Assembly: GCA_030684815.1 (NCBI GenBank)
Contig: JAUXXQ010000017.1
Location: 1-64,000, forward strand
Length of the DNA stretch: 64,000 nt
Origin: Methylobacter sp.
GTDB lineage: Bacteria > Pseudomonadota > Gammaproteobacteria > Methylococcales > Methylomonadaceae
Direction of reading: 5' to 3'
Shown: piece after piece, positions 9,012-46,331 of the stretch
How the letters are laid out: each line of letters starts with the position of its first letter
Position numbering within the stretch: position 1 is the stretch's first letter
Made by a program: the position numbers and the translations under genes
Notes under the pieces: generated by a model
Seen by the model: the letters and a program-made list of their open reading frames with translations, nothing else
The model's database searches: none
Told to the model about the DNA's origin: nothing

Positions 9012-9018
9012 ACAGTCA

Positions 9019-12000
9019 ATGGACTTAAAAACAAAGCAAGACAACGCTTTTTTTACCGGCACAATCCGGCGCCAATTGGCGTGGTCATTCGGTAGTGTGG
9101 CCTTAATCATCATGTTAGGGCTTGCCGGCCTGTTGTTCGACCGGCAACGTGATTTTCTTTACCGCGCGGCCATACAGCAAAGCAAATCGCTAGCCACCTC
9201 ACTAGCCAGCAGCAGCTCATCATGGGTATTAGCCAATGACATTGCAGGTTTAAAGGAAGTCTTGCACGGCGTTGCCGACCTGCCCGATTTGGAACGCGCT
9301 TATATCCTGTCGTTGCGCGGCGAAGTGCTAAGCTCGACACGGGATAACGAAGCGGGGTTGTTTGCTACCGACACGCCCAACCAAAACCTGCTAAATTCAC
9401 CGCCCAAAACGCAAGTGCTGCTGGCCAACTCCCGCCGAATCGATGTTGCCTCCCCGGTGATGACCGGCTCCCGCCATGTCGGCTGGGCACGGGTAGAAAT
9501 GACCATGCGCGGGGTCAATGCCAACCTACGCTCCATTATCATCATGGGCGTCAATTTTATCGTGTTTGCGGCGCTGACCGTATTAGCGGCGGCCATCATG
9601 CTGGCGCGGCGATTGACTAAACGCTTGCGCCACCTGATGCGGGTAACCGCGCAAGTCGAGCAGGGAAACCTGAACGTCCGCACCCATATTTCCGGTAGCG
9701 ATGAAGTGGGCATTCTGGCGCACGGATTTAACCAAATGTTGGGCGCACTCGCCCATTCCGAACGGCAAAGGGAACGCACCAACCAATTGTATGCCGCATG
9801 GACCCAATGCGCCGATATTATCGTGCGTGAGTCGGACGAGATTAAGCTCCTAAACGAAGTCTGCCGGATCATCGCCCATCATGTTGCCTTTAAACTGATT
9901 TGGGTGGGCATGACCGATGCGGATGGCTGGATACGCCTAGTTGCGACCAGCCGCCCCGATTCCAACTACTTAAAAAACATCAAAATCTCAGTGGATGGCG
10001 CGCTACCCGAAGGGCACGGCCCCATGGGTTCGGCCATCCGGGATGGCGCGCCGAAAATCTGTAACCACTTTCTCGATGACCCCGCCACACTGCCTTGGCA
10101 AGCTAGCGCTGCCGCCGAAAACATTGACGCAGCGGCGGCATTCCCATTAATGCGCGGCGGCCGCTGCGTTGGCGCCATTGCGGTTTATTCAGAAGACCCC
10201 GGCTACTTTACCCCCGACCTGATTGGTTTGATGCGTGGCCTGACTGACGACCTGTCTTATGCGCTGGATAATTTCGACCGCGAGCAACTGCGGCTTAATG
10301 CCGAACATGAGCTGCGTATTGCGGCAGCGGCGTTTGATTCCCAAGAAGGCATCTTAGTGACCGATGCCAACGGGGTTATCTTGCGCATCAATAAATCCTT
10401 TACTGAACTGACCGGTTACAGCGCCGAGGAAATTATTGGCCAATCCACCCGCATTCTCAAATCCGACCGCCAGGATCGCGCGTTTTATGCCACGATGTGG
10501 GAGTGCATTAACCGTGACCGGTACTGGCAGGGCGAAATCTGGAATAAAAGAAAAAATGGCCTCGTTTACCCTGAATGGCTGTGCATTACCGCGATTACCA
10601 ATGCTGAAGGCTCAGTCACCCACTATGTCGGCACTTTTACCGACATCAGCCAACGTAAGGCCGACGAAGAGCGCATTAAAAACCTGGCCTACTACGATTC
10701 GCTGACCACCTTGCCTAACCGCACCTTACTGTTCGACCGGCTCAAACTGGCGCTGAACACCAGCAAACGCAACAAGACCCACGGCGCGTTAATGTTCCTC
10801 GATCTTGACAACTTTAAGGCGCTTAACGACACCCTGGGGCATGATCGGGGCGACCAATTGCTGATCGAAGTCGGGCGTCGCCTGCAAAGCTGTGTGCGGG
10901 AAGCTGATACCGTCGCCCGCCTTGGCGGCGATGAGTTTGTGGTGATGCTGGAATTTCTCGACCAACAGCGCCCTGAGGCTATCGCCCAAGCCCACGCAGT
11001 TGCCGAAAAAATCCGCAGCTCACTGGCTGAGCTTTACCTGCTAAAAAGCGGCCTCGAAACCCACACAGATTCTTTTGTCGAACATTACTCCACCGGCAGC
11101 ATCGGTTTTGTGCTGTTTATGGGGCACGAAACCAGCAGCGAAGAACTTCTCAAACGCGCCGACCTGGCCATGTATCAAGCCAAACAAGCCGGTCGCAACA
11201 CCATCCGCGCTTTTGTCCCCGAAATGCAGGACAGCTTAAACCTGCGCACCGCACTGGAAACCGATTTGCGCAATGCGCTAGAACGCAACGAATTGAGCCT
11301 GCATTATCAGGTACAGGTCAATGTATCGGGCCAAGCGGTCGGCGCAGAAGCCTTGATACGCTGGAATCAAACCGAACGCGGCATGATTTCCCCGGCCGAA
11401 TTCATTCCGCTGGCTGAAGAAACCGGCCTGATTCTGCCTATCGGCGCCTGGGTGCTAAGACAAGGCTGCGAAACCCTAATCGAATGGGCCAAATACCCGG
11501 AAACCCGCCACTTAAAACTGGCCGTCAACATCAGCAGCCGACAGCTGAATCAGGACGACTTTGCCGAGCAAGTGCTGGCGCTATTGGCAGAAACCGGCAT
11601 TAACCCGGCGCGGCTAAAACTGGAAATCACCGAATCGGTCGTTGTCGATAACGTGAACAACACCATTGCCAAAATGCAGGAGGTCAGAAAATTAGGCGTC
11701 AACTTTTCGATGGATGATTTCGGCACAGGTTATTCCTCGCTGTCTTATCTGCAAAAGCTGCCACTGGAGCAACTGAAAATAGACCAATCATTCGTCAGAA
11801 ACATGGCTTTTAACAACCATGATTCCGCCATCATCCGCACCATTTTGGCGCTAGGACAGAACCTAGCCCTTAACGTCATTGCCGAAGGCGTGGAAACCGA
11901 AATCCAGCGAGACAGCCTGACCCAGTATGGATGCCGTGTGTTTCAGGGCTATTTGTTCGGACGACCGATGCCGGCCGAACAGTTCAGACTTAGCCTGCCG

Positions 12001-13530: not shown

Positions 13531-13884
13531 ATGAAACATTTAAAACCAATTGCAGCCCTCTTACTGTTAATGCCCATCAGCATGGTCAACGCAGCCGAAG
13601 AAGCGCCAAAAGCCGCAGAACCGACACACGAAATGGCGTCACATAAAGGCATGGGCGGTATGACGGAAGAGCAAAAAGATGAACACATGCGCGCCAAACA
13701 GGAACAGATGCTGCTCATGCATGACCTGTCTAATAAAATTTTGGCAGAACAAGAACCAACAAAGAAAGAAGAACTAAAAAAACAACAACTTGAACTGATG
13801 AAAGCACAGCACGCCCAAATGATGGAGCATCGCCAGCAAAAAAAGGTACAGCATAAACAACAAAAACAAGAACACAAAAAATAA
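13531..13884 (+). CDS. Small exported Met/His/Gln-rich protein
   Basis: 117 residues with a clear signal peptide (PIAALLLLMPISMVNA-AEE) and an AGGT ribosome-binding site 8 nt before the ATG. The mature part of about 95 residues contains about ten Met and nine His with many Lys, Glu and Gln. It includes an HKGMGGM segment and a basic Gln/Lys/His tail (QHKQQKQEHKK). Helical throughout. The Met/His content suggests soft-metal (copper) binding in the periplasm, but there is no recognised motif. No family recognised. It is followed by a strong hairpin and is probably a single-gene unit. Confidence 0.7.
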   Translation: MKHLKPIAALLLLMPISMVNAAEEAPKAAEPTHEMASHKGMGGMTEEQKDEHMRAKQEQMLLMHDLSNKILAEQEPTKKEELKKQQLELMKAQHAQMMEHRQQKKVQHKQQKQEHKK

Positions 13885-13944
13885 TACAGCAGCAAGCCTT
13901 TCGTCCAACATCACCCCAAGTTTCCGGCTCTCATCGTTATACAT

Positions 13945-13995
13945 AAGTTGTGGGAGCGGTCACCTGCCGCGGCCGGGTGGCCGCTCCCACAACTT
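13945..13995 (+). terminator. Long hairpin (REP-like) after the Met/His-rich gene
   Basis: Perfect 15-bp stem AAGTTGTGGGAGCGG/CCGCTCCCACAACTT with a GC-rich 21-nt loop, 60 nt after the stop. Only a short T-run follows the stem. The GTGGGAGCG core matches the palindrome at 2777-2821, so it is both a repeat family member and a likely terminator. Confidence 0.6.
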
Positions 13996-14108
13996 TTATC
14001 CATTTGTACTCGTTCCCAAACGCCTAAAACGGTGAACCAGGATTATGGTGAAAACAAAGACGAAGGCTTCCAGCTCGGGGTATGTTTCACTATAAAAAAG
14101 GGGTAACC

Positions 14109-14513
14109 ATGAGCATATTACAAGAATTTAAAGAATTTGCCGTCAAAGGCAATGCCATCGATATGGCAGTGGGCATCATTGTCGGCGCTTCTTTCGGTAA
14201 AATCATTTCATCGTTGGTTGCCGATGTCGTGATGCCGCCAATTGGTGTACTTATCGGCGGCGTAGACTTTACCAACTTGGCAATTACCTTAAAAGAAGCC
14301 ACCGAAGGCGCGCCCGCAGTCACGCTTAATTACGGCAACTTCATTCAAACGATGGTTGATTTCACCCTTATCGCTTTTGCCATTTTCATGGCGGTTAAGC
14401 TCATCAACAGCCTGAAGAAAAAACAGGAAGAGGCGCCGGCTGCGCCGCCAGAACCTTCCAAAGAAGAATTGCTGTTGACTGAAATCCGGGATTTACTAAA
14501 GAACAAGCAATAA
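14109..14513 (+). CDS. mscL: Large-conductance mechanosensitive channel MscL
   Basis: 134 residues from the ATG at 14109, which follows AAAGGGGTAACC. This start gives the family N-terminus ([22 protein letters not shown]), whereas the longer frame from 14082 adds nine foreign residues. TM1 carries the gate-lining GxxxG-type pattern ([15 protein letters not shown]), TM2 is [16 protein letters not shown], and a charged C-terminal helix follows a Pro/Ala-rich linker. The channel opens under hypo-osmotic membrane tension in the inner membrane. E. coli MscL has 136 residues. Confidence 0.96.
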
Positions 14514-14527
14514 TATTGCACAGTGAC

Positions 14528-14554
14528 GCGTTATTGATCCAAGGTCAATAACGC
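14528..14554. terminator. Convergent hairpin between mscL and jetD
   Basis: Perfect 10-bp stem GCGTTATTGA/TCAATAACGC around a 7-nt loop. It includes the last codons and stop of jetD and lies 14 nt after the mscL stop, suitable as a bidirectional end for the two converging transcripts. No U-run. Confidence 0.5.
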
Positions 14555-15721
14555 CGCCTCCAACCAGCCAAAACCGATTTTTTCCTGCTCAAGACGCAGT
14601 TTTTTACCCAACCGGTTATCGCGTAAATCATCGTAAAGCGCCGCTTCCTCGGCATTTAGTCTCGGCAAGTCACGCAAAGTCTGTTTTTCTTCCTCGCCCC
14701 AATGTGCCGTAAAAGCCAATAAAGTCTCGCGATCCATCAACAATGATTGCACATGCTCAAACTGGCTACGCAACTGATCAAGAATGGCAAAGCCGTGCGT
14801 GTCAATATCGCCCCAATAATGGACGGTGCAGCGCGCCAGCCATTGGGCTTGGCTTAAATTATCAAAACCGTAGCCCGCGCCAAAAATAACCAGGCTGCGT
14901 TTGAAGGGCGGAAAAGCCAAAAAGTTGATTTCGTTTTCAGTGATAAATACCCGAGTGACATTGGGATCAAGTTGGGAAAAACTCTCGGCATCCAGCATCA
15001 TGTCCTGAACTGTCTCGCCCGGCAACAGCGCACAAGCTGGGTCGAGTAGTCGGAAACGGATGCGCAGCGGCTTATCGCGAAAGCCATAACGCTGACAAAA
15101 TTGACTAACGCCCGATGCGCTAAAATCAACCGCGTCAGGCGGCAACACCCGATCGAGCCATTCGGTGAGCACTCCGCGATGGGCTTCGATAAATTTGCTG
15201 TGGACACCGGCAATATCCACCTGCCGGAGATACACGCCGGGACGCGGATGCTGCTCCAGCCAAGCCACAATGTCCAACAACCGGCTCCAAACATCGAAAA
15301 GCGCCAACGCGTTCAACGGGCGTTTCGCCAGCCAATCCAACAATAGAGGCTGGCGCTGGCGCGTGAGCTCAACCAGCGCAGTAAAACGGGCGGCTTCCTG
15401 CCGTTTGCCAAGCAACACCAAGGCATCTTCCAGCGTGTCAATCCAGACGGCCTGCGGCAATGCATTGTTGCCGAATAAGCGGTGTTTGAATTCGCGCATA
15501 TCCACCCGGCAATGCGGCATTTTTCGCAGTTCCGCACTCCAAACGCGCACCTCGTCGAAGCGGTCAATCATTTCGTTTGAGGTCGGCGTTTTCAGCGTCA
15601 AACGTTTAGGAAATAACGGCGTATCGCTGACCAAACCGGCCAGCACTTCGCCACGCTCCCAACTTTTTTGCAACTGGGCGCGTAAATCGGCGGGACTCGT
15701 CCAACGGCTGACTTTTGTCAT
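14531..15721 (-). CDS. jetD: JetD, Wadjet TOPRIM-type nuclease subunit
   Basis: 396 residues with the DUF3322 (N-terminal) plus DUF2220 (C-terminal) arrangement of JetD. The C-terminal half has TOPRIM-like acidic motifs: the Glu-bearing strand [14 protein letters not shown], an Asp pair in [13 protein letters not shown], and a later [13 protein letters not shown]. In characterised Wadjet systems JetD cleaves closed circular DNA after JetABC has extruded it, which removes small plasmids. The start overlaps the jetC stop by 4 nt (ATGA), so it is translated with jetC. Full length, with key acidic residues present. Confidence 0.9.
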
Positions 15722-18700
15722 CCGGCCAGCTTCGCTTTTTCCTCGCGATATTCTTCAATCGATAGATTGCGTAATTTGGAGGCGCGGCCTTCCTCGTTGT
15801 GGACAAAACCGACGCTGGACACAAAAGGCTCGATGATATGGATTTTTTGCAGCGGCGTGACAATCAACAATTGCAGGTTGAGCTGGGCAAACAAACGCAA
15901 ACCGTATTGCGCCGATTCATCCGAACCGCGCCCGAAGGCTTCGTCGATGACCACAAAACGGAACGAACGCGAACGCACCGCGCCCCATTCCAGACCGAAT
16001 TGATAAGCCAGACTGGCGGCAAGAATGGTGTAGGCCAGTTTTTCTTTTTGACCGCCCGATTTACCGCCGGAATCGGAATAATGTTCGTGTTCAGTGTCGT
16101 CCTCGCGCCAACGCTCGCTGGCGGCAAACACAAACCAGTTGCGCACATCGGTGACTTTGGCCGTCCAGCGCCGATCCGGTTCAGACTGGCCTTCGCACCC
16201 ACGGAAGCGCTCAATAATGGCTTTAACTTGCAGGAACTTGTTTTCGGAATATTGGCTGTCCTCAGAACCGGTCAGTACGCCTTCGGTGCAGGCGCGCAAT
16301 TCGGTCTGAAAATCGCGGATGTCGGCATCCGGCGTTGCCTGCGCTTCCAGCACGATATAGCGGCCGGTGTTGTAATCAATCCGGGTCAGCGATTGGTTAA
16401 TCAGCGTGATGCGTTCCTTGATGGTTTCCCGCTCGCGGTTCAGTTGCGAATTAAAATTGGCGACTTCGCGGATAGTGTTTTCATTCAGCAGTTCTTTAAA
16501 ACGCGCCTCGAAACGCGGCAAATCGTCGGCCTGCAATTGATCGAGCATGTTGCGGTATTCAAAAGCCGATTCAATGCTGGCATCGACCTCTGCGGTGTCG
16601 AGTTTGAAAGCTTCGTTATAAGCCGCCATTGCCTGAATGATTTTATCGCGCAGTGTTTTGAGCTTCCTCTCTTCACCCTCAATTTTCCTTTGCAATCCGT
16701 TGTACATCTCGCGCTCGCGGTTATCGCAGGACTCGACGCTAAGCTGATGTTCGGCCAATGCCTCGTTACGGATAGCGTCAAGGCGTTCAAAGTAGCGGGC
16801 ATGACTTGCGGTTTCGGCGGCGTTAAGCAGTGCCTGCGTGTCGTTGCGCAGACTTTCGGCGGCATCGCGCTTGGCTTCGGTAGAGCCCAGTTCGCGGGAC
16901 TTTTCGGCAATCAAGTTTTCGGTGTCCGCCAGTTCTGCTAGCAATGCCCGCAAGCGTTCACTCAACTGCTTTAACACATCGGACGCCGATTCCAGCCGCT
17001 GTTTCTCATCGGTCAATTGGGCGACGAGCAATGCCGACGCCTGCCAGTCCTGATCTTGAAAATCATTGTATTCATCCAGTTTCGACAGTGCCATTAGACG
17101 CTCTTTCAGCTGATTTTGCTGGCTTTGCACAGCACCGATAACGCTGCCTAATTGACCCAGACTCGCCGCCAACTGCCTGGCATTGCTTTCCAGTGCGGCG
17201 ATTTTTGCCGCATTAGTCCAACCCAAAACATAACGGCTGCGGTCATCCAGACGATGCCTGTCGTCTTTTTCGTGACGTTCGCCGGGCGCTTTGACTTGTC
17301 CGGCACGAGTAATGGCGCGGGTCTCGCGCCGAAATTGCTCAGGCGTGGCGCAGCAAGCCACGTCGAAACGGTGCGCCAATTCACGCTCCAGCCAATCGTA
17401 AAACGGCGAATCCGGCTTAATCGCCAATTTACGCGCCAGACTGTCTTTATGCAGACCGGGCAATTCGCCGCGACTACCTGGACGTATCCGAAAATACACC
17501 AAACGGCCTCTCAGCTGGGTTTTATCGACCCAAGCGGACACGGCGGCATAACACTCATCCGGCACCAACAGCGACAAACCGAAATTACGCAACAGCCGTT
17601 CCGCCGCGCCTTCCCAATCGCCCTCTTGTTCATGCACTTGCAACAATTCACCGATAAACGGCATATCGGCCTCAGACAGATTCAACGCTTTGCACAACGC
17701 GCCGCGCATGGCGATCTGTTCCGCCGGAATGTTGCTGCGCCGCGCTTTCAGGCTGTTGATTTCGGCGCTCAGTGCATCATGTTCCTGCCTGCCCTGACGC
17801 AACAGCACGCTGTGTTCGGTGAGCTGATTTTGCAAATCGGCTTCCTGTGTCTTCAGCGTTTCCGCCACGGTCAAAAAATGCTGACGTTGCTGGATAAATT
17901 CCGCCTCATTGCTCACCGGATTTTCGCCTGCGGCCTGCACCAACTTTGTGTAGCGCCGCGCCCTGCCCTCACGCCGTTCACGCTCCTGCGTCATCCGCGC
18001 AATCTCCAGCGTCAGGCGCTCCAAGCGGTCGCCGCCGTTATCGGCAATGCTGCGTTTAAGTTCGTCCTGTTCGGCACGTTGCGCAGTTTGGCGCTCAGTC
18101 AGGCGCTTGATCCGGGTATTTTGCCGCTCCCAGTCATCGGCAAGACCGGCAATGCGTTTGTCCAACAACGCCAATTTCAGCCCGGAAAAATAAGCCCTTA
18201 ACGCATCGCGGCAGGCGCGCAGTTCCTCGCTTTGCGCCACCAACAAGGCATGGCGCTCGCAATCGCCGACCAGCGGCGTGAGCAATTCCACCTGGCGCTT
18301 GGTCTTTAACACCGCTTCATGGGCGCGGTTTAAATTGTCGAAATGACCGAGCAAGGACTCGATACGCGACGCCACTTCAAACGGTTCCAGCATGTGACTG
18401 CGGACAAAATCGGTCAAATTACCGACCGACTTCATCGACACGGTTTGATGAAACAGCTCCAACGCCTGTTCATTATCAATGCCGAAACGACGGCGAAACC
18501 AGGCGCCGTAAGGCGGAAAGCTGTCGAACAGCTCGGCGCCCACACCGCGTAATTTCTTGCGCAAGGCGCTAATGTCGGTGCCGAAACGGGAAAAATCCGC
18601 GCTAATCGACAACGCCCGTTCGGCGCCGACAAAAAAGCGCGCGGGCTGGCTTTGCGCGTCCTTCATCCAAAAAACCTGAGCCAGCGTTACAGTCTGGTCG

Positions 18701-19089
18701 TAACCGGCATTATGAAAAACACCCAAGATCACCGAATAATTATTGTGGTCGCGCAATGCCACCGGCTTGGCGCTGCCGCTGATTTCATTGCGTTCTGACT
18801 TGTAATGGCCGAGCACATAAGATCGCAAACTGCGCTCTTTATTGTCGGCACCGGCGGCTTTGTTGTAAGCGATACGGTGCGCGGGCACTAACAGCGTGGT
18901 CACCGCATCGACCAGTGTCGACTTGCCCGAGCCGATGTCGCCGGTCAGCAGGGCGTTTTTACCGTCCGGGTTAAACGCCCACACCCTTGCATCGAAAGTG
19001 CCCCAGTTGAACACTTCCAGACGATGCAGGCGAAAACCGGACAATGCATCGTCGGCAGTAAAATCCAATTCCAATTGCCCCTCATTCAT
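15718..19089 (-). CDS. jetC: JetC, SMC-like ATPase of Wadjet
   Basis: 1123 residues. The N-terminal head starts [15 protein letters not shown] and has Walker [10 protein letters not shown] at about 50-58. Two long coiled-coil arms (roughly 240-480 and 640-920) surround a hinge of about 150 residues. The C-terminal head has the ABC signature [13 protein letters not shown] and Walker [16 protein letters not shown]. This is the MukB-like motor that forms a complex with JetA and JetB and extrudes DNA loops. Start and stop overlap jetB and jetD by 4 nt each (ATGA). Length and motifs are normal for JetC, so the motor looks functional. Confidence 0.93.
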
Positions 19090-19739
19090 GATGCACCGCC
19101 TGCTTCAGCATCCGCGCCCAATTGAGCCTGATAAGCCGCCAGCCGCTCATCGAAATCAGCCAGCCATTGCGCATCGACAAAGGCCTTGAGAATACGCGGC
19201 ACTTCAAACATCGCGGCTTGTTTGCCCTGATTGGCGCCGGTTTTAAGTTTGCGCAAAAAGCCCAGTTCGACGATTTTATTGAGCTGGGTATCCACTTGAT
19301 CAATCAATTTAGCCTCGTTGCTGCTGTCGGGCAAAAATACCCGGATCAAATCGACAATTTCACCGCGCGACAGCACTAAGCGCGTGTCGCCGCCGCTGGC
19401 ATCGAATTCGGCCAGTTTTTTCCGCAACAATGCCAGCAGCAAACTGACGGTAAACGACAAGGGCCGCCTTGCCACCAGACGCGGCAATTTTGGCGCGGCC
19501 TCGTCTTCATTTTCGCTGCGCGAACGTAAAAAAGCATAGCCTTCCGCCTCGTCAAGCACCAACTCCAAACCCAGCACTGCCACATAATCGCGTACCCGTG
19601 CCTGCAGATTGAGCAAGCTCGTCCAAAGCCCGGCTTCGGTTTCCTGATAAATCACGCCTTTGAGCAACACAATCACCAACGCCGATAAATCGTGTGTGGC
19701 TATGGGTGGATCAAGTTGCGAATCAAGTTGTTCTGTCAT
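19086..19739 (-). CDS. jetB: JetB, Wadjet MukE-like subunit (DUF4194)
   Basis: 217 residues from the ATG at 19739, two bases after the jetA stop. A longer frame to 19817 would run back into jetA and adds no conserved sequence. It is a winged-helix protein of the MukE/DUF4194 type, with segments [28 protein letters not shown] and [17 protein letters not shown]. The C-terminal [16 protein letters not shown] looks like a wing/helix pair. In Wadjet, JetB bridges the kleisin JetA and the JetC heads. It overlaps jetC by 4 nt. Confidence 0.88.
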
Positions 19740-19741
19740 CT

Positions 19742-21196
19742 TTATCTCACAAAAATAACGCGCGGCAACTGCGCCTGTTTCGTCGTTGTCATGCCATCCG
19801 GCTGTTCGCATGTCCACATAATGATTTCCTGTTTGTCTTCATCCAACACCGTTTTAAAACTGTCGCTCGCCAGTTGCAAATAGGTCACCAACTCCGCCAA
19901 ACCGTGCTGCAACGGCTGCAGCTTGCACAATTCAGCCAGGGTAATTTGCGCGCGGTCTTGCAACGCATGACGGATATGTCGGGACAGCTGCGCCTTGTCG
20001 ATGACGATTTGCGAATACAACGCTGCCGCATCAAGGTCGGCATCGCCTACTTCGAGTTCAATATCGGCAATGAACGATTTGATCGCAGGCGTGTGCAAAG
20101 GCCGTTCCATCGGCAATTCGATGTCGGCTGCGGTATCGGCAATGCTCATGACCTCGCCGGACGGTTGCGAACCGCGCAATAACAAGGCTTTGGCCTCAAT
20201 GCCATGCAAAATATCCATGATCCGCCGGTTTTCCAGCCAGGCTTGGTCATCCAAAAAACGCCGCAATTGCTGCGAAAGTTGGGCCACCGTGCGCTGCGTA
20301 TGTTCGCCCGCTTCCAGCCAGTCGTAATGTACGCGGCGGATGCGGGCATCGGGTTTGAGTTCGGCAACGGGGGATAAATTCAACACGCGTTCGAGCAGGT
20401 TGGACAGTTCTTCCTGACGGCGGCTGGACATCAAAAAATCCCAAAACGCGCGAAAACTGCGCCCCTGATCGGAATCGGCAATGGCATCGCGCTCGCCCAT
20501 AATGTCTTCCAGCAACGCGCCTTTTGAACCTTCCCACAGCGCAATGCGTTCGCGCACCCGCCTATCCAGACCACGAAAGTTGTGTTCGACCTCACGAAAA
20601 TCGGTGAGCAACTCACGCGCCAGCTGAATGAATTGCTGAAAGCGGTCTTTCACGGCGGTGTCGTCGAGCAGGGGCAGATCGCCCGCAGTAATACGGCCAA
20701 TCTCGACATCGATTTCATCGCGCCGTTTGTGCAATTCGGCAATGCGCGTCTCGGGGTCGGTTTCGCTGCCTTCGCTCATTTGCTTGAGCAATTCGAACAA
20801 GGTCAGCAAACGCGACTCGGTGCCGACAAAACTGCGTTCGGTCAGAGTGCCTAACCACGCGGTGGCTTTTTCTGTCGAAGGGGTCAAATCGAAATGGGCT
20901 TCATCAGAAGCTTGCAGATAAAACTTGCGCAGCCAGCCTTTTTCGGTCGCCGCCCAATCGTTGATGTAATCGAGCGCTGATTTGGGGAAAGCCTGCGCGC
21001 CCAGCCGTTCGCGCAGCGCAAACAATTCGTCTTCCAGCGCCTCGGCCAAATCGGCTTGTGCCATAACGCGGATATTGGGCGCAATAAAGACCCGATGCAA
21101 AAAACTGGCAATCAGCGGTGCGTGGGGGGAATTAAGCAAGCGCCAAGCCGGATGGTTTTGGCGCAATAGTTCAAGGGTGGCGTAGTCCAAACTCAA
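19742..21196 (-). CDS. jetA: JetA, Wadjet MukF-like kleisin (DUF3375)
   Basis: 484 residues, DUF3375. It opens with the family pattern LDYATLELLRQNHPAWRLL and SPHAPLIASFLHRVF, then ALDYINDWAATEKGWLRKFY, long helices, and DIELEVGDADLDAAALYSQI near the C-terminus. The start codon is TTG at 21196, sharing bases with the hoxW stop (TTGA). No ATG is available until far inside the conserved domain. JetA closes the JetC ring as the kleisin. The overlap makes Wadjet translation coupled to the hydrogenase operon, which is unusual. Confidence 0.9.
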   Translation of the reverse strand: MSLDYATLELLRQNHPAWRLLNSPHAPLIASFLHRVFIAPNIRVMAQADLAEALEDELFALRERLGAQAFPKSALDYINDWAATEKGWLRKFYLQASDEAHFDLTPSTEKATAWLGTLTERSFVGTESRLLTLFELLKQMSEGSETDPETRIAELHKRRDEIDVEIGRITAGDLPLLDDTAVKDRFQQFIQLARELLTDFREVEHNFRGLDRRVRERIALWEGSKGALLEDIMGERDAIADSDQGRSFRAFWDFLMSSRRQEELSNLLERVLNLSPVAELKPDARIRRVHYDWLEAGEHTQRTVAQLSQQLRRFLDDQAWLENRRIMDILHGIEAKALLLRGSQPSGEVMSIADTAADIELPMERPLHTPAIKSFIADIELEVGDADLDAAALYSQIVIDKAQLSRHIRHALQDRAQITLAELCKLQPLQHGLAELVTYLQLASDSFKTVLDEDKQEIIMWTCEQPDGMTTTKQAQLPRVIFVR

Positions 21197-21702
21197 GCGG
21201 CAGTGTTGTCGGTTGCTGTTGTTTGTTCAGTTGCCTGCTGCAACCAAAAATCAAGGTCTGGATTGGCCAATAAGCGTTCAGCAAAAACACAGGCTTCGAC
21301 TAAATGGGCGGCGGCATTGCTGCCCAAGCCTTCGCCCAATTCAAATTTTTCGCCTTTGATGCTGAGCAGAAAACACGGCGGCGGGGTTTGTTTTTTTATC
21401 GATTGATAGACTGCTAACACCGCCGCAGGGCTCATCGCATGGGTGGTGTAGCTTTTGTCCCGCTCAGGTTCTAATAACGTGAAATCGAAAGCATGTTTGC
21501 AAGCGACCGAGGCATCGACGAACAACACCAAGCGCCGATTTTCCAAATCCAGCGCATGTTCAATTTGCAGCTGAAAATCAGACAATATGTCCAACTGGCT
21601 CAAATCGCAACGGCTTTCAACATGCTCCAACATCAACGGCCCCAGCGCGTCGTCGCCGCGACTGAGGTTGCCGTAACCAAACAACAATACCGGTTTAGGC
21701 AT
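21193..21702 (-). CDS. hoxW: HoxW, hydrogenase large-subunit maturation endopeptidase
   Basis: 169 residues from the ATG at 21702, inside the end of hoxH (8-nt overlap). A TTG four codons upstream is less likely. Member of the HycI/HoxW protease family, with nickel-sensing acidic residues in GYGNLSRGDDALGP, VLFVDASV and a His in YTTHAMSP. It clips the C-terminal tail of HoxH once nickel is inserted. In Ralstonia-type hydrogenases hoxW likewise follows hoxH. The stop overlaps the TTG of jetA. Confidence 0.9.
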   Translation of the reverse strand: MPKPVLLFGYGNLSRGDDALGPLMLEHVESRCDLSQLDILSDFQLQIEHALDLENRRLVLFVDASVACKHAFDFTLLEPERDKSYTTHAMSPAAVLAVYQSIKKQTPPPCFLLSIKGEKFELGEGLGSNAAAHLVEACVFAERLLANPDLDFWLQQATEQTTATDNTAA

Positions 21703-23194
21703 TGTCACGCTCAATTTGCCCGTCGCTGTGTTTAATCAGCTTATCAATCACTTTACCTTCGGCATCAACCAATTCCAGTTGCAGCGGCATTTTGCCGACC
21801 GCATGAGTGGCGCAGGACAAGCAAGGATCGTAAGCGCGTATCGCCACTTCCAGGTTGTTTAACAACGGTTCGGTCAGTTCGCGGCCGGATAAATATTCCG
21901 CCGCCACTTGCCGTACCGATTCGTTCATTGCCATGTTGTTGCTGGTGGTTGAGACGATTAAGTTGGCTTTGGTGACGATGTCGTTTTCATCGACTTGATA
22001 ATGATGAAACAAGGTGCCGCGCGGCGCTTCAATCACGCCTATGCCCTCGTAGCGTTTTTCGCCTTGTGCGACCAAATCAGAACCCATGATGTCAGGATCG
22101 TTAAGCAGGGTTTTGATACTTTCAGCGCAATGCAATACTTCAATCAAACGCGTCCAATGGAAGGCGAGGGTACTGTGTACCATGGCTTCGCCGCTGTGCG
22201 CTTTAAACTCGACGCGGGCCGCTTCCGCCAACGGCGTGTCGATGTAATCGCAGTTATTGACCCGCGCCAACGGCCCGACCCGATACCAGCCGTTTTCTTG
22301 GCCTAGCGACAACAAATAAGGGAACTTCATGTAAGTCCAGGAGCGCACTTCTTCATGGATATAATCGTTATATTTGCAATAATCGATGTGATCGATGATG
22401 GTTTCGCCGTGCTCGTTCTTGGCGCGGATGCCGCCGTGATAAAGCTCCAGCGCGCCGTCCGGTTTGGTCAAGCCCAAATAATTGGTGCGCAAAGTGGCAA
22501 ATTCGTCATAAAAAGGCAGGTTGGAACAATGCACTTTTTTGATCAACGCAACCGATGCGGCCGACCAAGCTATCATTTGGTCGATGTCTTCGAGCAAATA
22601 GTCGCGCTCGGCCTTGGTCAATGATTTGTTCATGCCGCCGGCAATCGCGCCGGTGCCGTGAATACGTTTGCCGGACACCATGCGGATGACTTCCTGGCCG
22701 TATTTGCGCAATTTGACGCCTTGTACACCGATGTCGGGATATTCGGCCAATACCGCAATCACCGAACGCTTGCTGATGTCGCTTTCAAAACCGAACAATA
22801 AATCCGGGCTGGATAAATGGAAAAAATGCAGGGCATGGGATTGCAGCACTTGCCCGAAATGCAGTAGACGCCTTAACTTGTCCGCTGAAACCGGCAGGTT
22901 TTCAGGGTCGATACCAACCAGTTGGTCTATCGCTTTAGCCGCCGCCAAATGATGACTGACCGGGCAGATGCCGCATAAACGCTGCACTAAAACCGGCAAT
23001 TCCCAATAAGGACGGCCTTGGATAAAGCGTTCAAAGCCGCGAAATTCAACGATATGCAATCTGGCTTGTTGGACTTTATTGTCCGCATCCAGCAATAACG
23101 TGACTTTGCCGTGGCCTTCAACGCGTGAAACGGGATCAACGACTACGCGTTTTAAACTGTCCCGGTTTTCGGCTGTTTCTAAATGTTCGTACAT
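21695..23194 (-). CDS. hoxH: HoxH, [NiFe] large subunit of NAD-reducing hydrogenase
   Basis: 499 residues from the ATG at 23194. The frame extends to 23245, but that reads through a repeat and is not conserved. It carries both nickel-binding motifs: L1 RLCGICPVSHH and L2 DPCLSCATH. After the L2 His comes a tail of about 30 residues (AVGKMPLQLELVDAEGK…), the piece removed by HoxW. The enzyme splits H2 and passes electrons through HoxY and HoxU to HoxF, which reduces NAD+. Cytoplasmic. Preceded by an inverted pair of 32-bp repeats that may modulate expression between hoxY and hoxH. Confidence 0.96.
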   Translation of the reverse strand: MYEHLETAENRDSLKRVVVDPVSRVEGHGKVTLLLDADNKVQQARLHIVEFRGFERFIQGRPYWELPVLVQRLCGICPVSHHLAAAKAIDQLVGIDPENLPVSADKLRRLLHFGQVLQSHALHFFHLSSPDLLFGFESDISKRSVIAVLAEYPDIGVQGVKLRKYGQEVIRMVSGKRIHGTGAIAGGMNKSLTKAERDYLLEDIDQMIAWSAASVALIKKVHCSNLPFYDEFATLRTNYLGLTKPDGALELYHGGIRAKNEHGETIIDHIDYCKYNDYIHEEVRSWTYMKFPYLLSLGQENGWYRVGPLARVNNCDYIDTPLAEAARVEFKAHSGEAMVHSTLAFHWTRLIEVLHCAESIKTLLNDPDIMGSDLVAQGEKRYEGIGVIEAPRGTLFHHYQVDENDIVTKANLIVSTTSNNMAMNESVRQVAAEYLSGRELTEPLLNNLEVAIRAYDPCLSCATHAVGKMPLQLELVDAEGKVIDKLIKHSDGQIERDNA

Positions 23195-23212
23195 GGTTTT
23201 TTCTCGTATTTT

Positions 23213-23289
23213 GTAGGTTGGGTTAGCGGTAGCGTAACCCAACACATCGAAGGCAATTGTCGGGTTACGCTATCACTAACCCGACCTAC
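23213..23289. repeat. Inverted pair of 32-bp YREP-like repeats between hoxY and hoxH
   Basis: GTAGGTTGGGTTAGCGGTAG… at 23213-23244 and its diverged reverse complement at 23259-23289 make a long hairpin in the hoxY-hoxH gap. A third copy is at 28001-28032. Each unit is itself palindromic (GGTTA … TAACC). Confidence 0.8.
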
Positions 23290-23307
23290 GCAACATATTA
23301 AATTCGC

Positions 23308-23847
23308 TCAATCGTAATGCACCAGCTCGTAAGGTAATGACGGCTCACGCCCTTCAATCAAATCGGTCAAAAATTTCCAGAACACGTCTGCCGATGGCGG
23401 ACAGCCGGGCAGGTAATAATCGATTTTGACGATTTCATGAATAGGATGCACTTGGTTCAGCAACAAGGGCAATTCTATGTCGCTGGGAATCTTCGGGTTC
23501 TCCACGCCGATGCCGTCCAGATAAGCTTCATTCAGGCATTCTTCCAGCGGGATATGATTGCGCATCGCCGGTAATCCGCCGTTAATTGCGCAAGCACCGA
23601 CCGCCACCAGAATTTTGCAGTTGTTACGGAACTCGCGCAATACATGCACGTTTTCCGAATTACACACGCCGCCTTCAATCAAGCCTATATCGCAATTGGT
23701 GCAATGTTCTATGTCGGTGATCGGCGATCGGTCGAACTCGACCACTTCAGCCAGTTGCAGCATCCGTTCGTCTATATCTAAAAATGACATGTGACAGCCG
23801 AAACAGCCGGCCAGCGAGGTTGTCGCTACTCTAATTTTATTCGCCAT
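23308..23847 (-). CDS. hoxY: HoxY, small subunit of NAD-reducing hydrogenase
   Basis: 179 residues from the ATG at 23847, which has GGAG 10 nt upstream and gives the conserved MANKIRVATTSLAGC start. A longer frame to 23895 is translation of a repeat element. The four cysteines of the proximal [4Fe-4S] cluster are visible: two in CFGCH, one in GACAINGG and one in LPGCPPSAD. It relays electrons between the HoxH active site and HoxU. It overlaps the hoxU stop by 11 nt because hoxU is extended by repeat B. Confidence 0.94.
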   Translation of the reverse strand: MANKIRVATTSLAGCFGCHMSFLDIDERMLQLAEVVEFDRSPITDIEHCTNCDIGLIEGGVCNSENVHVLREFRNNCKILVAVGACAINGGLPAMRNHIPLEECLNEAYLDGIGVENPKIPSDIELPLLLNQVHPIHEIVKIDYYLPGCPPSADVFWKFLTDLIEGREPSLPYELVHYD

Positions 23848-24607
23848 GTTTAATATTCTCCGTGCCGACTGCCATGGATGGCGGAAGTGCCGCAACCGGT
23901 CGGGAACCGGATGCGGCTAAAGCTACTTGATCGATTTGTTTGTGATCGTAAATGCGCTCGCCAATCGGTACCTGATAACCGGTGCGCTTAACCAACAGTG
24001 CGCCGGTTGGGCAAATGTGTACGGCTTGGTCTGATGCGTCAATATCGGTATCTTTCAACAAACCGCTTTTCGCATTAACAATCAAATGCTTGTGTATACC
24101 GCGCCCACTGATCGCGAACACGTCTTTACCGTCTTTTTCGTGGCTGGCGCGGACGCACAACGTACAAAAAATGCAGCGATTATGGTCAATCATCACTTCG
24201 GCATGGGAGGCGTCGACTTCCCGATCTGGATAGAATAACGGGAAATGATTGTCGAGCATGTTCAAATGGTAAGCGACAGCCTGCAGCTGGCAGTTGCCGG
24301 TTTTTTCGCACGACGGGCAAAAATGGTTGCCTTCGACAAACAGCATTTGGGTGATTTTCTTGCGGTCTTCAATCAGCTCTTCGGTCTCATTGAGTATGTC
24401 TTGCCCTTCCAATGCTGGAAAAGTACAAGCAGAGCAGTTGCGGCCGTTGACGTTGACCGTACACAGTTTGCAACTGCCATGCGGGGTGAATTCCGGCTGA
24501 TGACACAAATGCGGAATATAAACACCGGCCGCCATCGCCGCATCCATGATGGTTTGCCCGTCTTCAAAAGGGATGATTTTACCGTCGATAGTAATAGTTT
24601 TACTCAT
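23837..24607 (-). CDS. hoxU: HoxU, iron-sulfur diaphorase subunit, C-terminus extended by a repeat
   Basis: 256 residues from the ATG at 24607, which has GAGGTG at ideal distance; an ATG two codons earlier is too close to it. N-terminal [2Fe-2S] ferredoxin domain (CHQPEF…GSCKLC…CSAC), then a NuoG-like region with HFCPSCEKTGNC and a [4Fe-4S] motif CIFCTLCVR paired with HICPTGAL. The conserved protein ends near GERIYDHKQID. The following residues (ASGSRPVAALPPSMAVG) are the translation of repeat B at 23867-23920, making HoxU about 20 residues longer than the Ralstonia protein (about 234). The start overlaps the hoxF stop by 8 nt. Confidence 0.94.
   Translation of the reverse strand: MSKTITIDGKIIPFEDGQTIMDAAMAAGVYIPHLCHQPEFTPHGSCKLCTVNVNGRNCSACTFPALEGQDILNETEELIEDRKKITQMLFVEGNHFCPSCEKTGNCQLQAVAYHLNMLDNHFPLFYPDREVDASHAEVMIDHNRCIFCTLCVRASHEKDGKDVFAISGRGIHKHLIVNAKSGLLKDTDIDASDQAVHICPTGALLVKRTGYQVPIGERIYDHKQIDQVALAASGSRPVAALPPSMAVGTENIKHGE
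23867..23920. repeat. Repeat B, copy 2, inside the hoxU reading frame
   Basis: Shares CGACTGCCATGGATGGCGG with 7721-7772. The downstream hairpin differs in sequence but still pairs (CCGCA-CCGG … CCGG-TGCGG). It is read through in frame by hoxU. Confidence 0.7.
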
Positions 24608-26390
24608 GTTCATTCACCTCAATCTGAGCTAAGTGCGCTCCGGCATCGTCCCGATTCGCCATGCGCCGCGCAGTTTCCAGCGCTGCATCCAAATCAAACC
24701 CCGGTTCGTAACTGATTTCTTTTAATTTATTTTGGTACAAATCCGGGTAGCGTTCCAATGTGGTCAATATTGGGTTAGCCGCCGTTTGTCCAAGACCGCA
24801 ATGGCTATAATTTTTCACCAGCTGGCACAATTCTTCCAATGCAACCACGTCGCCTGCCGAGCCGTGACCTTCGACAATCTTATCGAGTTGTTTTTGCAAC
24901 AACGAAGTACCCACCCGGCACGGCGTACAAAATCCGCAGCTTTCATGGGCGAAAAAGTGTGCAAAATTATGCACCATGTCGAGGATGTTACGGCTGGTGT
25001 TAAAAATAATGAAAGAACCGCCGGTCGCCAAATCTTCAAATGCCAGTTTGCGCCCGAACTCCTGATTGGAAATAAAGGTGCCTGATGGCCCGCCGACCTG
25101 AACGCCTTGCACATTTTCCGCACCGCAGTCATTGAGAATAGTCTGGATAGTGGTGCCGAAAGGGTATTCGTAAATGCCGGGACGTGCGCAATCGCCGCTG
25201 ATACTGAGAATTTTACTGCCGTTTGATTTTTCAGTGCCGATACGGGCAAACCAATCGCCGCCATTAACTGCAATAGCCGCTGCCGCCATAAACGTTTCGA
25301 CGTTATTGACCACGGTCGGCTTGCCCAAATAACCCTGGGTGACCGGATAAGGCGGACGGTTGCGCGGAATACCGGCTTTGCCTTCAAGCGATTCGATCAG
25401 TGCGGACTCTTCGCCGCAAATGTAAGCGCCGGCGCCGAGGCAAATTTCTATATCAAAATCGAGACCTTCGCCCAAAATATCGTTGCCCAACAAACCGTTT
25501 TGACGGCGCTGAGCCAACATATTTTGCAGCTTGTCATATAAGTGCAAATATTCACCGCGCAAGTACACAAAACCCTGTTTAGCGCCAATAATCGCGGCGC
25601 AAACAGTCATGCCTTCAAAAACCTGATCGGCGTAAGTGTTTAATAAAACGCGGTCTTTAAAAGTGCCGGGTTCGCCTTCGTCGGCATTGCACACCACATA
25701 GCGCTGGGTTTCCGCTTCTTCGGCACAAAACTGCCATTTACTCGCTGTTTTAAATCCGGCGCCGCCCCGGCCGCGTAAACCTGATTGATTTATTTCTGCC
25801 AGCGTTTCCTTAATGCCGCGCCTAAAAACCGTCCTTAGCGCCGCACCTTGCTCAAGCGGCTGGTTCAACAGCAAACCGGATTTGAGGATATTGTCATCAA
25901 CCTGGAATAACTCGCCAGGCCATTGCTCCAACGGTTTTTGTTGCTTGACCAATTCGGCGATTTTATCGCAGGCCGCACGATCCAAATGCGTCAAGGCGTG
26001 GCCGTTGACCAGGCCGGCAGGCCCTTGATCGCACATGCCGGTACAGGAGGTTTTATCCAAACTCACCAAGCCGTCCGCACTGACTTCGCCCACGGCAACG
26101 CCGAGCTTGCCTGCCAGATAAGCCAACAAATCTTTGCTGCCCAGCATGTGATCGGTGATGGAATCGCTGATTAACAGCTCATACTGGCCTCGGGGCGATA
26201 AATGAAAAAAACTGTAAAATTCAACAACGCCAATGATTTGCGTGCGGGGAATGCTGAGCAAGCTGGCTAACTGCCCTATCGCGTCCTCGGGGATATAATG
26301 ATAATGGGATTGGATTTGCCTTAAAATCTGCAACAAATGCGTTGCCTGGTACTGGTTGTTGTCTATGATACCCTGAATAAATTGTTTCAC
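24600..26390 (-). CDS. hoxF: HoxF, NADH/FMN diaphorase subunit with fused NuoE-like domain
   Basis: 596 residues, the size of Ralstonia HoxF (602). Residues about 1-160 are a NuoE/HoxE-like domain, of which only one cysteine pair (CTGMC) is present; the first pair of the usual [2Fe-2S] site is missing. The NuoF-like part has an FMN/NAD Gly-rich loop (GRGGAGFKT), the second Gly motif GAGAYICGEESAL and the [4Fe-4S] motif SCGFCTPCRVG with the fourth Cys in SHCGLG. It reduces NAD+. First gene of the hox run. The start is GTG at 26390, five bases after GGGAG. Confidence 0.95.
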   Translation of the reverse strand: MKQFIQGIIDNNQYQATHLLQILRQIQSHYHYIPEDAIGQLASLLSIPRTQIIGVVEFYSFFHLSPRGQYELLISDSITDHMLGSKDLLAYLAGKLGVAVGEVSADGLVSLDKTSCTGMCDQGPAGLVNGHALTHLDRAACDKIAELVKQQKPLEQWPGELFQVDDNILKSGLLLNQPLEQGAALRTVFRRGIKETLAEINQSGLRGRGGAGFKTASKWQFCAEEAETQRYVVCNADEGEPGTFKDRVLLNTYADQVFEGMTVCAAIIGAKQGFVYLRGEYLHLYDKLQNMLAQRRQNGLLGNDILGEGLDFDIEICLGAGAYICGEESALIESLEGKAGIPRNRPPYPVTQGYLGKPTVVNNVETFMAAAAIAVNGGDWFARIGTEKSNGSKILSISGDCARPGIYEYPFGTTIQTILNDCGAENVQGVQVGGPSGTFISNQEFGRKLAFEDLATGGSFIIFNTSRNILDMVHNFAHFFAHESCGFCTPCRVGTSLLQKQLDKIVEGHGSAGDVVALEELCQLVKNYSHCGLGQTAANPILTTLERYPDLYQNKLKEISYEPGFDLDAALETARRMANRDDAGAHLAQIEVNEHE

Positions 26391-26482
26391 TTTATCTCCC
26401 TGGCTTTATCTTCTTGGATGTTTGTGGATATGATATTAGCGAATGATTGCATTAAGGTTAATTAATGCCCTTACTGCGGCTA

Positions 26483-26511
26483 ACTATATCCCACTACTTT
26501 AAATAAACCAA
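26483..26511 (-). promoter_or_regulatory. Putative sigma-70 promoter of the hox-jet operon
   Basis: On the minus strand, TTGGTT (26511-26506) and TATAGT (26488-26483) are 17 nt apart, about 93 nt before the hoxF GTG. No sigma-54 (-24/-12) element was seen in this gap, although many hydrogenase operons use one. Confidence 0.55.
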
Positions 26512-26557
26512 TAATCAGGCGCAGTCTTTCCAATATCGACTAACAAACACATCATTT

Positions 26558-27022
26558 ATGGCAAAAAAAACAACGCCTTTTAAACCGGCATTATCCTTTC
26601 CAAACCGCACTTTTGCTTACCTTTACAGCCAGGTCGAACAACAAAAGCAGGTTCTGCAGAAAATCCATGGGGTGTTGCCAGCGACATTAGCCCAACATGC
26701 ATTGCATTGCGTTGTTCATGGCAAGAAACTGTTGGTTTACACCGATACGGCGGCCTGGGCATCGCAGCTGCGTTTTTATAACCGTGCCATTCTCGCCGCC
26801 ATTGCGCCGGTAACCCGGGAACCTGTATCAATTATGCAGATTAAAATCAAAATGGGGGCGGATCAAACAGAGCCGCCCCCCAGTAGGAAACCGAATATCC
26901 CTTCGGCTGAAAAAATAGGGCTGATCCATAGCCACAGCCTGACGGTTGCAGATGGGCCATTGAAACTGGCATTGCTGAAACTAAGCACTACACTGAAAAA
27001 GCTGTCCGACGCCAGCCACTGA
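26558..27022 (+). CDS. dciA: DciA-like protein (DUF721)
   Basis: 154 residues. Residues about 25-95 match the DUF721/DciA fold: LQKIHGVLPATLAQHALHCVVHGKKLLVYTDTAAWASQLRFY, a KH-like domain, followed by a disordered Pro-rich stretch and a C-terminal helix. DciA helps load the replicative helicase DnaB in bacteria lacking DnaC/DnaI. In many gammaproteobacteria it sits beside lpxC, in convergent orientation as here. The ribosome-binding site is weak. Confidence 0.85.
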   Translation: MAKKTTPFKPALSFPNRTFAYLYSQVEQQKQVLQKIHGVLPATLAQHALHCVVHGKKLLVYTDTAAWASQLRFYNRAILAAIAPVTREPVSIMQIKIKMGADQTEPPPSRKPNIPSAEKIGLIHSHSLTVADGPLKLALLKLSTTLKKLSDASH

Positions 27023-27040
27023 CTTCAGCTAAAGCAAGCA

Positions 27041-27053
27041 GGGGCAGTGCCCC
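27041..27053. terminator. Small GC hairpin between dciA and lpxC
   Basis: GGGGC-AGT-GCCCC lies between the two converging stop codons (27022 and 27063). Short and without a U-run, so only a possible bidirectional terminator. Confidence 0.35.
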
Positions 27054-27062
27054 TTCGCCGGA

Positions 27063-27986
27063 TTATGCCGCAGGCCTGAGTGTTTCTGCCGAACGCATAA
27101 ACGAAATAGGCGCCATATTTTCTTCGTCAAAGGTAACCATTTCCCAGGCATCCTTATCATTTAGCAAAGCCCGGAGTAATTTATTGTTCAAGCCGTGGCC
27201 CGATTTATAACCGGTAAACTCGCCAATCAGGCTATGCCCCAATAGGTATAAATCGCCTATCGCATCAAGAATTTTATGCTTAACAAATTCGTCCGCATAA
27301 CGCAGGCCGTCTTCATTGATGATTTTATTGTCATCAACCACAATGGCATTGTCGAGGCTTCCGCCCAATGCCAGATTATTTTCTTTTAACATTTCAATAT
27401 CTTTCATAAAGCCGAAAGTCCTTGCCCTGCTCACTTCCTTGACAAAAGTAGTCGATGAAAAATCCATGGTCGCAGTTTTCACATGATCCTCAAAAACCGG
27501 ATGTTCAAAATCGATGGTAAAGGTGACCTTGAAACCTTCAAAGGGGTCAAAAGAGGCCCATTTATCGTCTTCCTCAACCCGTATGCTGCGTTTGATGCGG
27601 ATATATTGTTTCGGGCTGTCCTGTTCTTCAACCCCGGCAGACTGCAGCAAAAAAACAAAAGGCCCGGCACTGCCATCCATAATCGGCACCTCGGCGGCAC
27701 TGACATCAATAATGGCATTGTCTATGCCTAACCCGGCAAAAGCCGACAACAAATGCTCTATCGTGGATATTTTCACATCACCGGCAACCAATGTGGTAGA
27801 CAGCACCGTTTCACCCACATTTTCCGGCGTAGCCTCAATGGTCACCGGCTCATCCAAATCAACCCGACGAAACCGGATGCCTGTATCCGCCTCTGCCGGA
27901 CGTAAAGTCAAATAAATTTTATCACCGGTATGTAAGCCTACGCCGGTCGCCCTGATTGTATTTTTTAAAGTTCGCTGTTTGATCAT
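27063..27986 (-). CDS. lpxC: LpxC, UDP-3-O-acyl-GlcNAc deacetylase
   Basis: 307 residues (E. coli 305). This zinc hydrolase carries out the first committed step of lipid A synthesis. Zinc ligands are in STIEHLLSA and in [15 protein letters not shown]; the family start [19 protein letters not shown] and [26 protein letters not shown] are intact. Cytoplasmic. Last gene of the dcw cluster, separated from ftsZ by 102 nt that contain one repeat, so it may have its own promoter. In enterics its level is set by FtsH proteolysis; the C-terminus here ends LRPAA, similar in style to the E. coli degron. Confidence 0.97.
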
Positions 27987-45976: not shown

Positions 45977-46331
45977 AGAAAGAGTCGGCCTATAAGCCGG
46001 GTTTTGTCGAGAACAGTCATTCATCTAGGCTGCAAGTCACCCTGCAGCTCAAGCAATCTACCCAGGAACCGCGCGGGCCACGCGTCTGTCCCTCTATTTG
46101 ATCTTGCTCCGGGTGGGGTTTACCCTGCCACACCTGTTACCAGTTGCGCGGTGCGCTCTTACCGCACCTTTTCACCCTTACCGGCCACCTAAGCGACAGG
46201 CGGTATATTTTCTGCGGCACTTTCCGTAGGCTCACGCCTCCCAGGCGTTACCTGGCACCCTGCCCAGTGGAGCCCGGACTTTCCTCCATCTTATCTTGCG
46301 ATAAAACAGCGACTGCTCAGCCGACTCTTTC
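45977..46331 (-). ncRNA. rnpB: RNase P RNA (bacterial class A)
   Basis: The minus-strand transcript begins GAAAGAGTCGG and ends CCGACTCTTTC, which pair as helix P1. Universal core segments are present: GGAGGAAAGTCCGGGCTCC (5' strand of P4 region) and AGATGAATGACTGTTCTCGA near the 3' end, followed by AAAACCCGGCTTA. About 355 nt, the class A size. The RNA is the catalytic subunit that trims tRNA 5' leaders. Position between rsmI and mraZ is the usual one in Pseudomonas-like genomes. Small open frames on either strand here are spurious. Confidence 0.97.

Follow-up and report, generated by a model that had tools for sequence, protein, structure and literature searches.

Introduction

Type I Wadjet systems (JetABCD; MksBEFG) are plasmid-defence systems of four subunits, in which JetABC extrudes DNA loops and JetD cuts circular DNA. 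Variable slots between core genes, whose flanks stay the same while their cargo varies by species, are known to take up such defence genes. The hydrogenases of the NAD-reducing (nicotinamide adenine dinucleotide-reducing) [NiFe] type, HoxFUYH with HoxW, are in turn recognised by their subunit set and by the NuoE-like domain fused on HoxF. The present work concerns a 64-kb stretch of a Methylobacter sp. genome (contig JAUXXQ010000017.1; hereafter the window, its genome being labelled G000), in which a complete jetABCD operon stands directly behind a hoxFUYHW operon. The reading favoured here, with a probability of roughly 0.7, is accidental promoter capture, whereby jet would have come to the 3' end of hoxFUYHW in a variable slot and would now depend on hox read-through and translational coupling.

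The literature searched, which took in PMC10586767 and PMC12287153 and extended little into subscription journals, holds in its accessible portions no description of a Wadjet system in a hox or sdh operon. Among papers on Wadjet and hydrogenase, none deals with such a pairing by its title or the start of its abstract, and a literature search for Wadjet with succinate dehydrogenase gave no paper.

Results

The junction between hoxW and jetA

The genes hoxFUYHW (26390-21193) and jetABCD (21196-14531) are contiguous on the minus strand, with no gap between hoxW and jetA. This arrangement, claimed in an earlier note on the same DNA, is borne out by the open reading frames (ORFs), by Pfam and by type I matches in PADLOC. 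That note was also right that most junctions overlap (six of eight when likely starts are used, the exceptions being a gap between hoxY and hoxH and one of 2 nt between jetA and jetB) and that the TTG start of jetA shares bases with the hoxW stop. As read in the sequence, hoxW ends in ..GCC GCT TGA and jetA begins with TTG AGT TTG GAC.., the two sharing TTGA (21193-21196, minus strand), a 4-nt overlap; a second TTG at 21190 is a possible alternative jetA start.

Comparison with the sister genome G005 (locus L046) delimits the block that carries jet. Identity by blastn is 98.6% in the flank up to 21233 and 95.2% from 14517 on, and between these flanks (14518-21232, minus strand) lies jetABCD in G000, a different four-gene cassette in G005 and, in G020 (L048), a short interval of 187 nt with a GC-rich inverted repeat inside. 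Homology of the jet block to other copies begins at 21202 (versus G009), 21200 (versus G019) or 21196 (versus G002). About 30 nt, 21203-21232 on the minus strand, match neither G005 hoxW nor the other jetA leaders; they encode the last hoxW codons, TEQTTATDNTAA as against the NPAES end in G005. The block joins the hox operon within the last dozen codons of hoxW, and these codons, together with the overlap, are junction sequence. Direct repeats at the cassette ends amount to short shared 7-mers, with no target-site duplication, and RNA folding at the junction is no better than that of shuffled sequences (z -0.13).

The jetA start is older than this junction. Because the TTG and a Shine-Dalgarno sequence are found in G002, G009 and G019, where no hoxW overlaps, the start codon is ancestral and the leader is missing here. 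The anti-Shine-Dalgarno duplex before jetA scores +0.4 kcal/mol in G000, compared with -10.0 in G002, -6.4 in G019, -6.4 in G009 and -5.5 in L103 (a Methylovulum bin). These four are the other members of the JetA clade of G000, and the Shine-Dalgarno leader of its nearest JetA relatives is thus absent from G000.

The Jet proteins and the hydrogenase

The type I gene set is complete, in the order A-B-C-D and in one operon, and the best PADLOC matches are all type I. On the minus strand lie jetA (19742-21196; JetA1, 6e-224; Pfam DUF3375), jetB (19086-19817, likely ATG 19739; JetB1, 1e-94; DUF4194 and MksE), jetC (15718-19089; JetC1, E 0) and jetD (14531-15721; JetD1, 2e-153). The match to the best JetA model begins at residue 3 of the jetA product. 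JetC is an ATPase of the structural maintenance of chromosomes (SMC) type with Walker A and B (Pfam AAA_29 and SbcC_Walker_B), and it aligns with the solved JetC chain of 8dk2 (2e-61) over residues 19-1115 of 1123. In the Toprim nuclease JetD, Glu262 aligns with the mutated position 248 of 8q72 JetD(E248A) and the DxD in GDIDTHG is kept, both features being invariant across 10 aligned JetD proteins. In subunits, order, SMC ATPase and Toprim residues the locus resembles type I Wadjet and is an ordinary chromosomal operon of that type, whose proteins should act as in other Wadjet systems. Only the setting differs: jetA has no visible leader of its own, and its start codon shares bases with the stop codon that ends a gene for hydrogenase maturation.

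The hox genes, likewise on the minus strand, encode all of the subunits HoxF, U, Y and H, with domain families assigned by Pfam. A NuoE-like domain is fused to a NuoF-like subunit in hoxF (24600-26390; 2Fe-2S_thioredx, Complex1_51K, NADH_4Fe-4S), followed by hoxU (23837-24613; Fer2_4, NADH-G_4Fe-4S_3, Fer4_15; NCBIfam HoxU at 8e-53, under the model cut-off), by hoxY for the small subunit (23308-23847; Oxidored_q6; ORF from 23895, likely ATG 23847) and by hoxH for the NiFe large subunit (21695-23245; NiFeSe_Hases; likely ATG 23194). The HoxH translation contains CGICPVSHH and DPCLSCATH, which we take to be the NiFe ligand motifs. The maturation protease gene hoxW (21193-21714, likely ATG 21702) matches TIGR00072 over the cut-off, and no Pfam family at 0.001.

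Upstream of hoxF, the promoter that the earlier note had placed at 26483-26511 (minus strand) is a probable one on the reading of the sequence and the alignment of relatives. Its hexamers, TTGGTT-17-TATAGT, agree with the consensus at 8 of 12 positions. Among 18 hoxF upstream regions (those alignable out of 21 given loci), 12 including the window keep both hexamers and the 17-nt spacing as counted by eye, one has the hexamers with a longer spacer, and five have different sequence at that place, so the hox promoter is conserved in the genus. Between hoxF and jetA, a consensus promoter scan of 13800-27100 turned up nothing promoter-like on the minus strand.

A variable slot behind hoxW

Twenty hox loci of Methylobacter relatives were compared. 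A tree built from eight hox-ftsZ region genes (22 rows, three of them under half filled, with many other forks weak) joins G000 and G005 as sisters with 100/100 support. The hox operon of the window lies in the same place behind ftsZ-lpxC-dciA as in 16 of the 20 loci, in which that side is seen and is alike; L049, L056 and L061 end short of it, and L063 shows no match in its remaining 690 nt. Behind hoxW the contents differ: hypA/hypB in nine loci (hypB alone recognised in L060), mscL directly in three (L048, L056, L064), another SMC system in one (L046, the sister G005), other genes in five (L047, L058, L059, L061, L065), a decayed hypAB remnant in one (L054) and a contig edge in one (L063). 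Since the contents vary in this way, the place behind hoxW is a variable slot whose commonest cargo is hypAB. The remnants of hypA and hypB in L054 (7776-8062; G013) suggest that hypAB is older cargo there. Unlike the nine loci with hypAB, the window has hoxW without these genes behind it; a search limited to hypB, with the relatives' copies behind hoxW as query, gave one 65% match elsewhere in the window genome.

The slot is comparable to those between core genes that take defence genes, in that the flanks are the same and the cargo varies by species, and the likeness extends to a second SMC system and to DpdE/ZorD-like helicases in two relatives (L059 and L061, about 2 kb away). It differs in that the cargo here directly adjoins one of the flanking operons, which probably drives its expression. 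Outside the cassette, the gene order of G000 is that of G005 where both are visible. On the right the slot is flanked by mscL (14082-14513, plus strand; Pfam MscL, NCBIfam mscL over the cut-off), convergent with jetD and 17 nt past it.

The G005 cassette in the same slot (L046:2441-8811) comprises a DUF3584 SMC protein, a protein resembling MksE, one of 409 aa that matches nothing in Pfam, and a DUF7281 protein. The last has a conserved E and DxD that line up, weakly, with the Toprim site of JetD (hhalign probability 21.7, P 0.001). In PADLOC at 0.001, only the SMC of the four has a match, and a weak one; sequence comparison with the PDB, made for the SMC and DUF7281 proteins, gave no match. 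The cassette looks like a further system of the MksBEFG/Wadjet kind. Homologous sets are found elsewhere in the genomes of other Methylobacter, and G000 itself carries one, with an SMC 56% identical to that of G005.

Gene names in the region have Pfam support for lpxC, ftsZ, clpB, phoR, dciA (DUF721), mraZ, hypA, citrate synthase and an sdhB-like iron-sulphur protein, the name sdhB resting on domains and place. The response regulator is presumably phoB, and ftsA, secD, secF, mtaB and sucA are assumed names. A GC-rich inverted repeat of 20 pairs lies at 13947-13993, between a 117-aa ORF and mscL, and GGAGCGG motifs occur also behind hoxW in the relatives L052 and L053. An RNase P RNA class A gene (45977-46328, minus strand) adjoins mraZ and was the only Rfam match in the whole window at gathering thresholds; ARAGORN found no tRNA in the window.

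Distribution of jet in the genus and beyond

HoxH is matched in all 23 genus genomes (two of the matches partial) and JetA in five, the sister G005 giving no JetA match. Only G000 and G009 have jet next to hox. In G009 it lies behind hypB of the hox operon, after 70 nt, while G002 and G019 carry it between phoR and clpB, divergent from clpB, and the jet genes of G011, which are more distantly related, stand on a different contig. Inverting the arrangement of G019 would yield that of G009, in which clpB itself falls beyond the contig. The G002 copy (L066:7098-10757) has full-length jetA and jetB, and jetC and jetD cut short (matching jetC 1-363 and jetD 289-396 only); it is probably broken.

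A wider survey covered the best 80 of at least 556 JetA-encoding stretches; in 68 of the 80, 3 kb or more of sequence precedes jetA. Genes of the hox operon are near JetA in one of the 80, L099, which is G009 again, so that adjacency of hox and jet is not conserved across lineages in this sample. A further candidate, L124, was not counted, its HoxH match being weak (26%).

Stop-start overlaps at other jetA loci

The 80 loci were also examined for the overlap itself. Under one rule for jetA and controls (ORFs of at least 120 aa), 48 loci have a co-directional upstream ORF, 27 one on the other strand and five none; an exact 4-nt overlap is possible in 14 of the 48, against 54 of 348 other co-directional pairs from these same loci (one-sided p 0.020, uncorrected and with kinship ignored). 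When starts are placed by homology, the overlap is found at 15 of 80 jetA genes; the denominator falls to 50 if only loci with a co-directional neighbour (the closest upstream ORF, at least 60 aa) are counted. Against the same control of 54/348, whose size rule of at least 120 aa differs, one-sided p is 0.29 for the former and 0.013 for the latter, again uncorrected and with kinship ignored; two of the loci, L105 and L107, are one bin. The idea that a 4-nt overlap is unusual in itself was rejected on the 14/48 and 54/348 counts. The hox-jet gene set is beyond chance; the 4-nt overlap by itself is hardly so.

The upstream partners at the 15 overlaps differ, and include sdhA, a ResIII-type helicase, RmuC, a Fic protein, RecJ, YhcG, UPF0270 and DUF3617 (Pfam-scanned for 10 of the 15). 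L169 (122 aa) is without a Pfam match, the match of L126 to the RmuC profile is confined to the beginning of that profile, and L164 (94 aa) lies outside the Pfam scan.

In Sulfuricella sp. STA_15 (L118:6475-15620) jetABCD lies between sdhA and sdhB; the TTGA at which jetA starts is furnished by the last bases of sdhA, TAT-TGA, and sdhB follows 9 nt behind jetD. The relative L183 has the same sdhA end and then sdhB where L118 has jet, and L105 and L107 hold the sdhA-jetA part only. In a second Sulfuricellaceae genome (L141, the same as L241) jet again separates sdhA from sdhB, at distances of about 700 and 150 nt respectively; the JetA tree does not pair this copy with that of L118, although the forks there are weak. 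In two Geobacteraceae bins (L145 and L149, about 8295-11455) recJ ends in ATGA, which is the jetA start, and most other fetched recJ loci have a different, conserved sequence after recJ. In Methylomonas koyamae SM2 (L135:8652-16872) rmuC overlaps jetA by 4 nt, and ORFs of 419 and 1350 aa, not jetB-D, follow. A broader pattern is a tentative and rather doubtful generalisation: type I cassettes would recurrently join their NTGA start onto the stop codon of whichever gene precedes them, as with hoxW in the window and with sdhA, recJ and rmuC at other loci, and defence would thereby ride on central metabolism and inherit its regulation.

Discussion

Under accidental promoter capture, a jet block landed behind hoxW in a slot of changing content, where the hoxW frame now runs to the TGA within jetA's own TTGAGT. 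Transcripts begun at the hox promoter would then read through into jet, and jetA would be translated mainly by ribosomes that finish hoxW and re-initiate at the overlapping stop and start, plasmid defence thereby passively gaining the regulation of hox. Such an expression route is likely because jet shows no leader, because the scan gave no promoter-like sequence on this strand from hoxF to jetA, and because the hoxW frame enters the jetA start. Insertion exactly behind hoxW with use of read-through was one of two explanations offered in the earlier note, and it is this one that the comparison sustains, through the sharp cassette edge against G005, the roughly 30 nt of new sequence, the lack of a Shine-Dalgarno sequence and the conserved promoter, although it is a matter of inference from sequence. 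The other explanation, by which the expression of defence would track redox or H2 supply, is very unlikely if taken as a functional link that keeps Wadjet under hox control so that plasmid restriction follows these states. The one-strand adjacency behind a single conserved promoter and the second case in G009 speak for it; against it stand the universal HoxH and the sparse JetA of the genus, the phoR-clpB copies of G002 and G019, the different SMC system in the slot of the sister and the single hox neighbour among the 80 surveyed loci. Because JetA occurs in 5 of 23 genomes and beside hox in two, a functional hydrogen-defence link is not supported. The earlier note had named the finding of jetABCD elsewhere in close relatives as telling against its proposal, and this is what G002 and G019 present; it weakens the functional link and leaves read-through in G000 untouched. 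Nothing here requires hydrogen metabolism and defence to be linked on purpose; the relatives show that genes were exchanged locally at a variable slot, and the locus is no indication of a natural pairing of defence with hydrogen use.

An independent jet promoter inside hoxW or the junction, with the overlap as a bystander, is unlikely. In its favour, the nearest upstream ORF (at least 60 aa, some of these surely spurious) is on the other strand in 30 of the 80 loci, and for that reason jet must often own a promoter. In the window, however, the flank that contains most of hoxW is 98.6% identical to that of the jet-less sister, so that no promoter came in within it, only some 30 nt of new sequence precede jetA, and the scan found no minus-strand site. 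Several points weigh against capture and coupling all the same. The consensus scan missed the hox promoter and could miss others too; jet may have a weak promoter within hoxW or one of a different class. A weaker anti-Shine-Dalgarno score than that of jetA is found in 5 of 45 mechanically chosen window ORFs, and random 20-mers have a median of -1.5. The leader comparison uses the nearest relatives (G002, G019, G009 and L103) in place of the actual donor, whose leader may have differed. Across the survey, overlapped jetA starts have a median score of -5.9 (n=15) against -2.7 for the others (n=53; p 0.007), in a comparison that omits 12 of the 80 loci, where the extrapolated first codon is not ATG, GTG or TTG. 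The overlap is not a general substitute for ribosome binding, because overlapped starts score stronger; a general lack of Shine-Dalgarno sequences at such starts was rejected, the trend being opposite. On the side of capture and coupling, dN/dS (the ratio of non-synonymous to synonymous substitution rates) of 0.06-0.15 for jetA, jetC and jetD, in pairs with G000, shows purifying selection on these genes, although the values span the whole divergence rather than the time since jet moved; the position of jet behind hypB in G009 counts on this side too.

As to origin, it is conceivable, at somewhat less than even odds, that the block moved by local inversion or translocation from the nearby phoR-clpB interval instead of being freshly imported. 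The position of jet in G002 and G019 and the fit of the G009 order to an inversion of the G019 order agree with such a move, as does the grouping of the G000 JetA with those of G002, G019, G009 and the Methylovulum bin (SH-aLRT, the Shimodaira-Hasegawa-like approximate likelihood-ratio test, 96). The sister G005 is nevertheless without a JetA match, G000 and G005 share their gene order outside the cassette where both are visible, and, since JetA is 85% identical to a Sulfuricella copy, import retains a fair share of the probability.

The locus amounts to a clean natural experiment, in which sister species have the same hox operon with different cargo, one cargo having lost any visible expression signal of its own. 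Promoter capture by a defence system thus becomes directly testable. If the wider pattern, with jet inside the sdh operon or behind recJ or rmuC, were also true, it would show a way in which a DNA-cutting system can have its expression set without a dedicated regulator.

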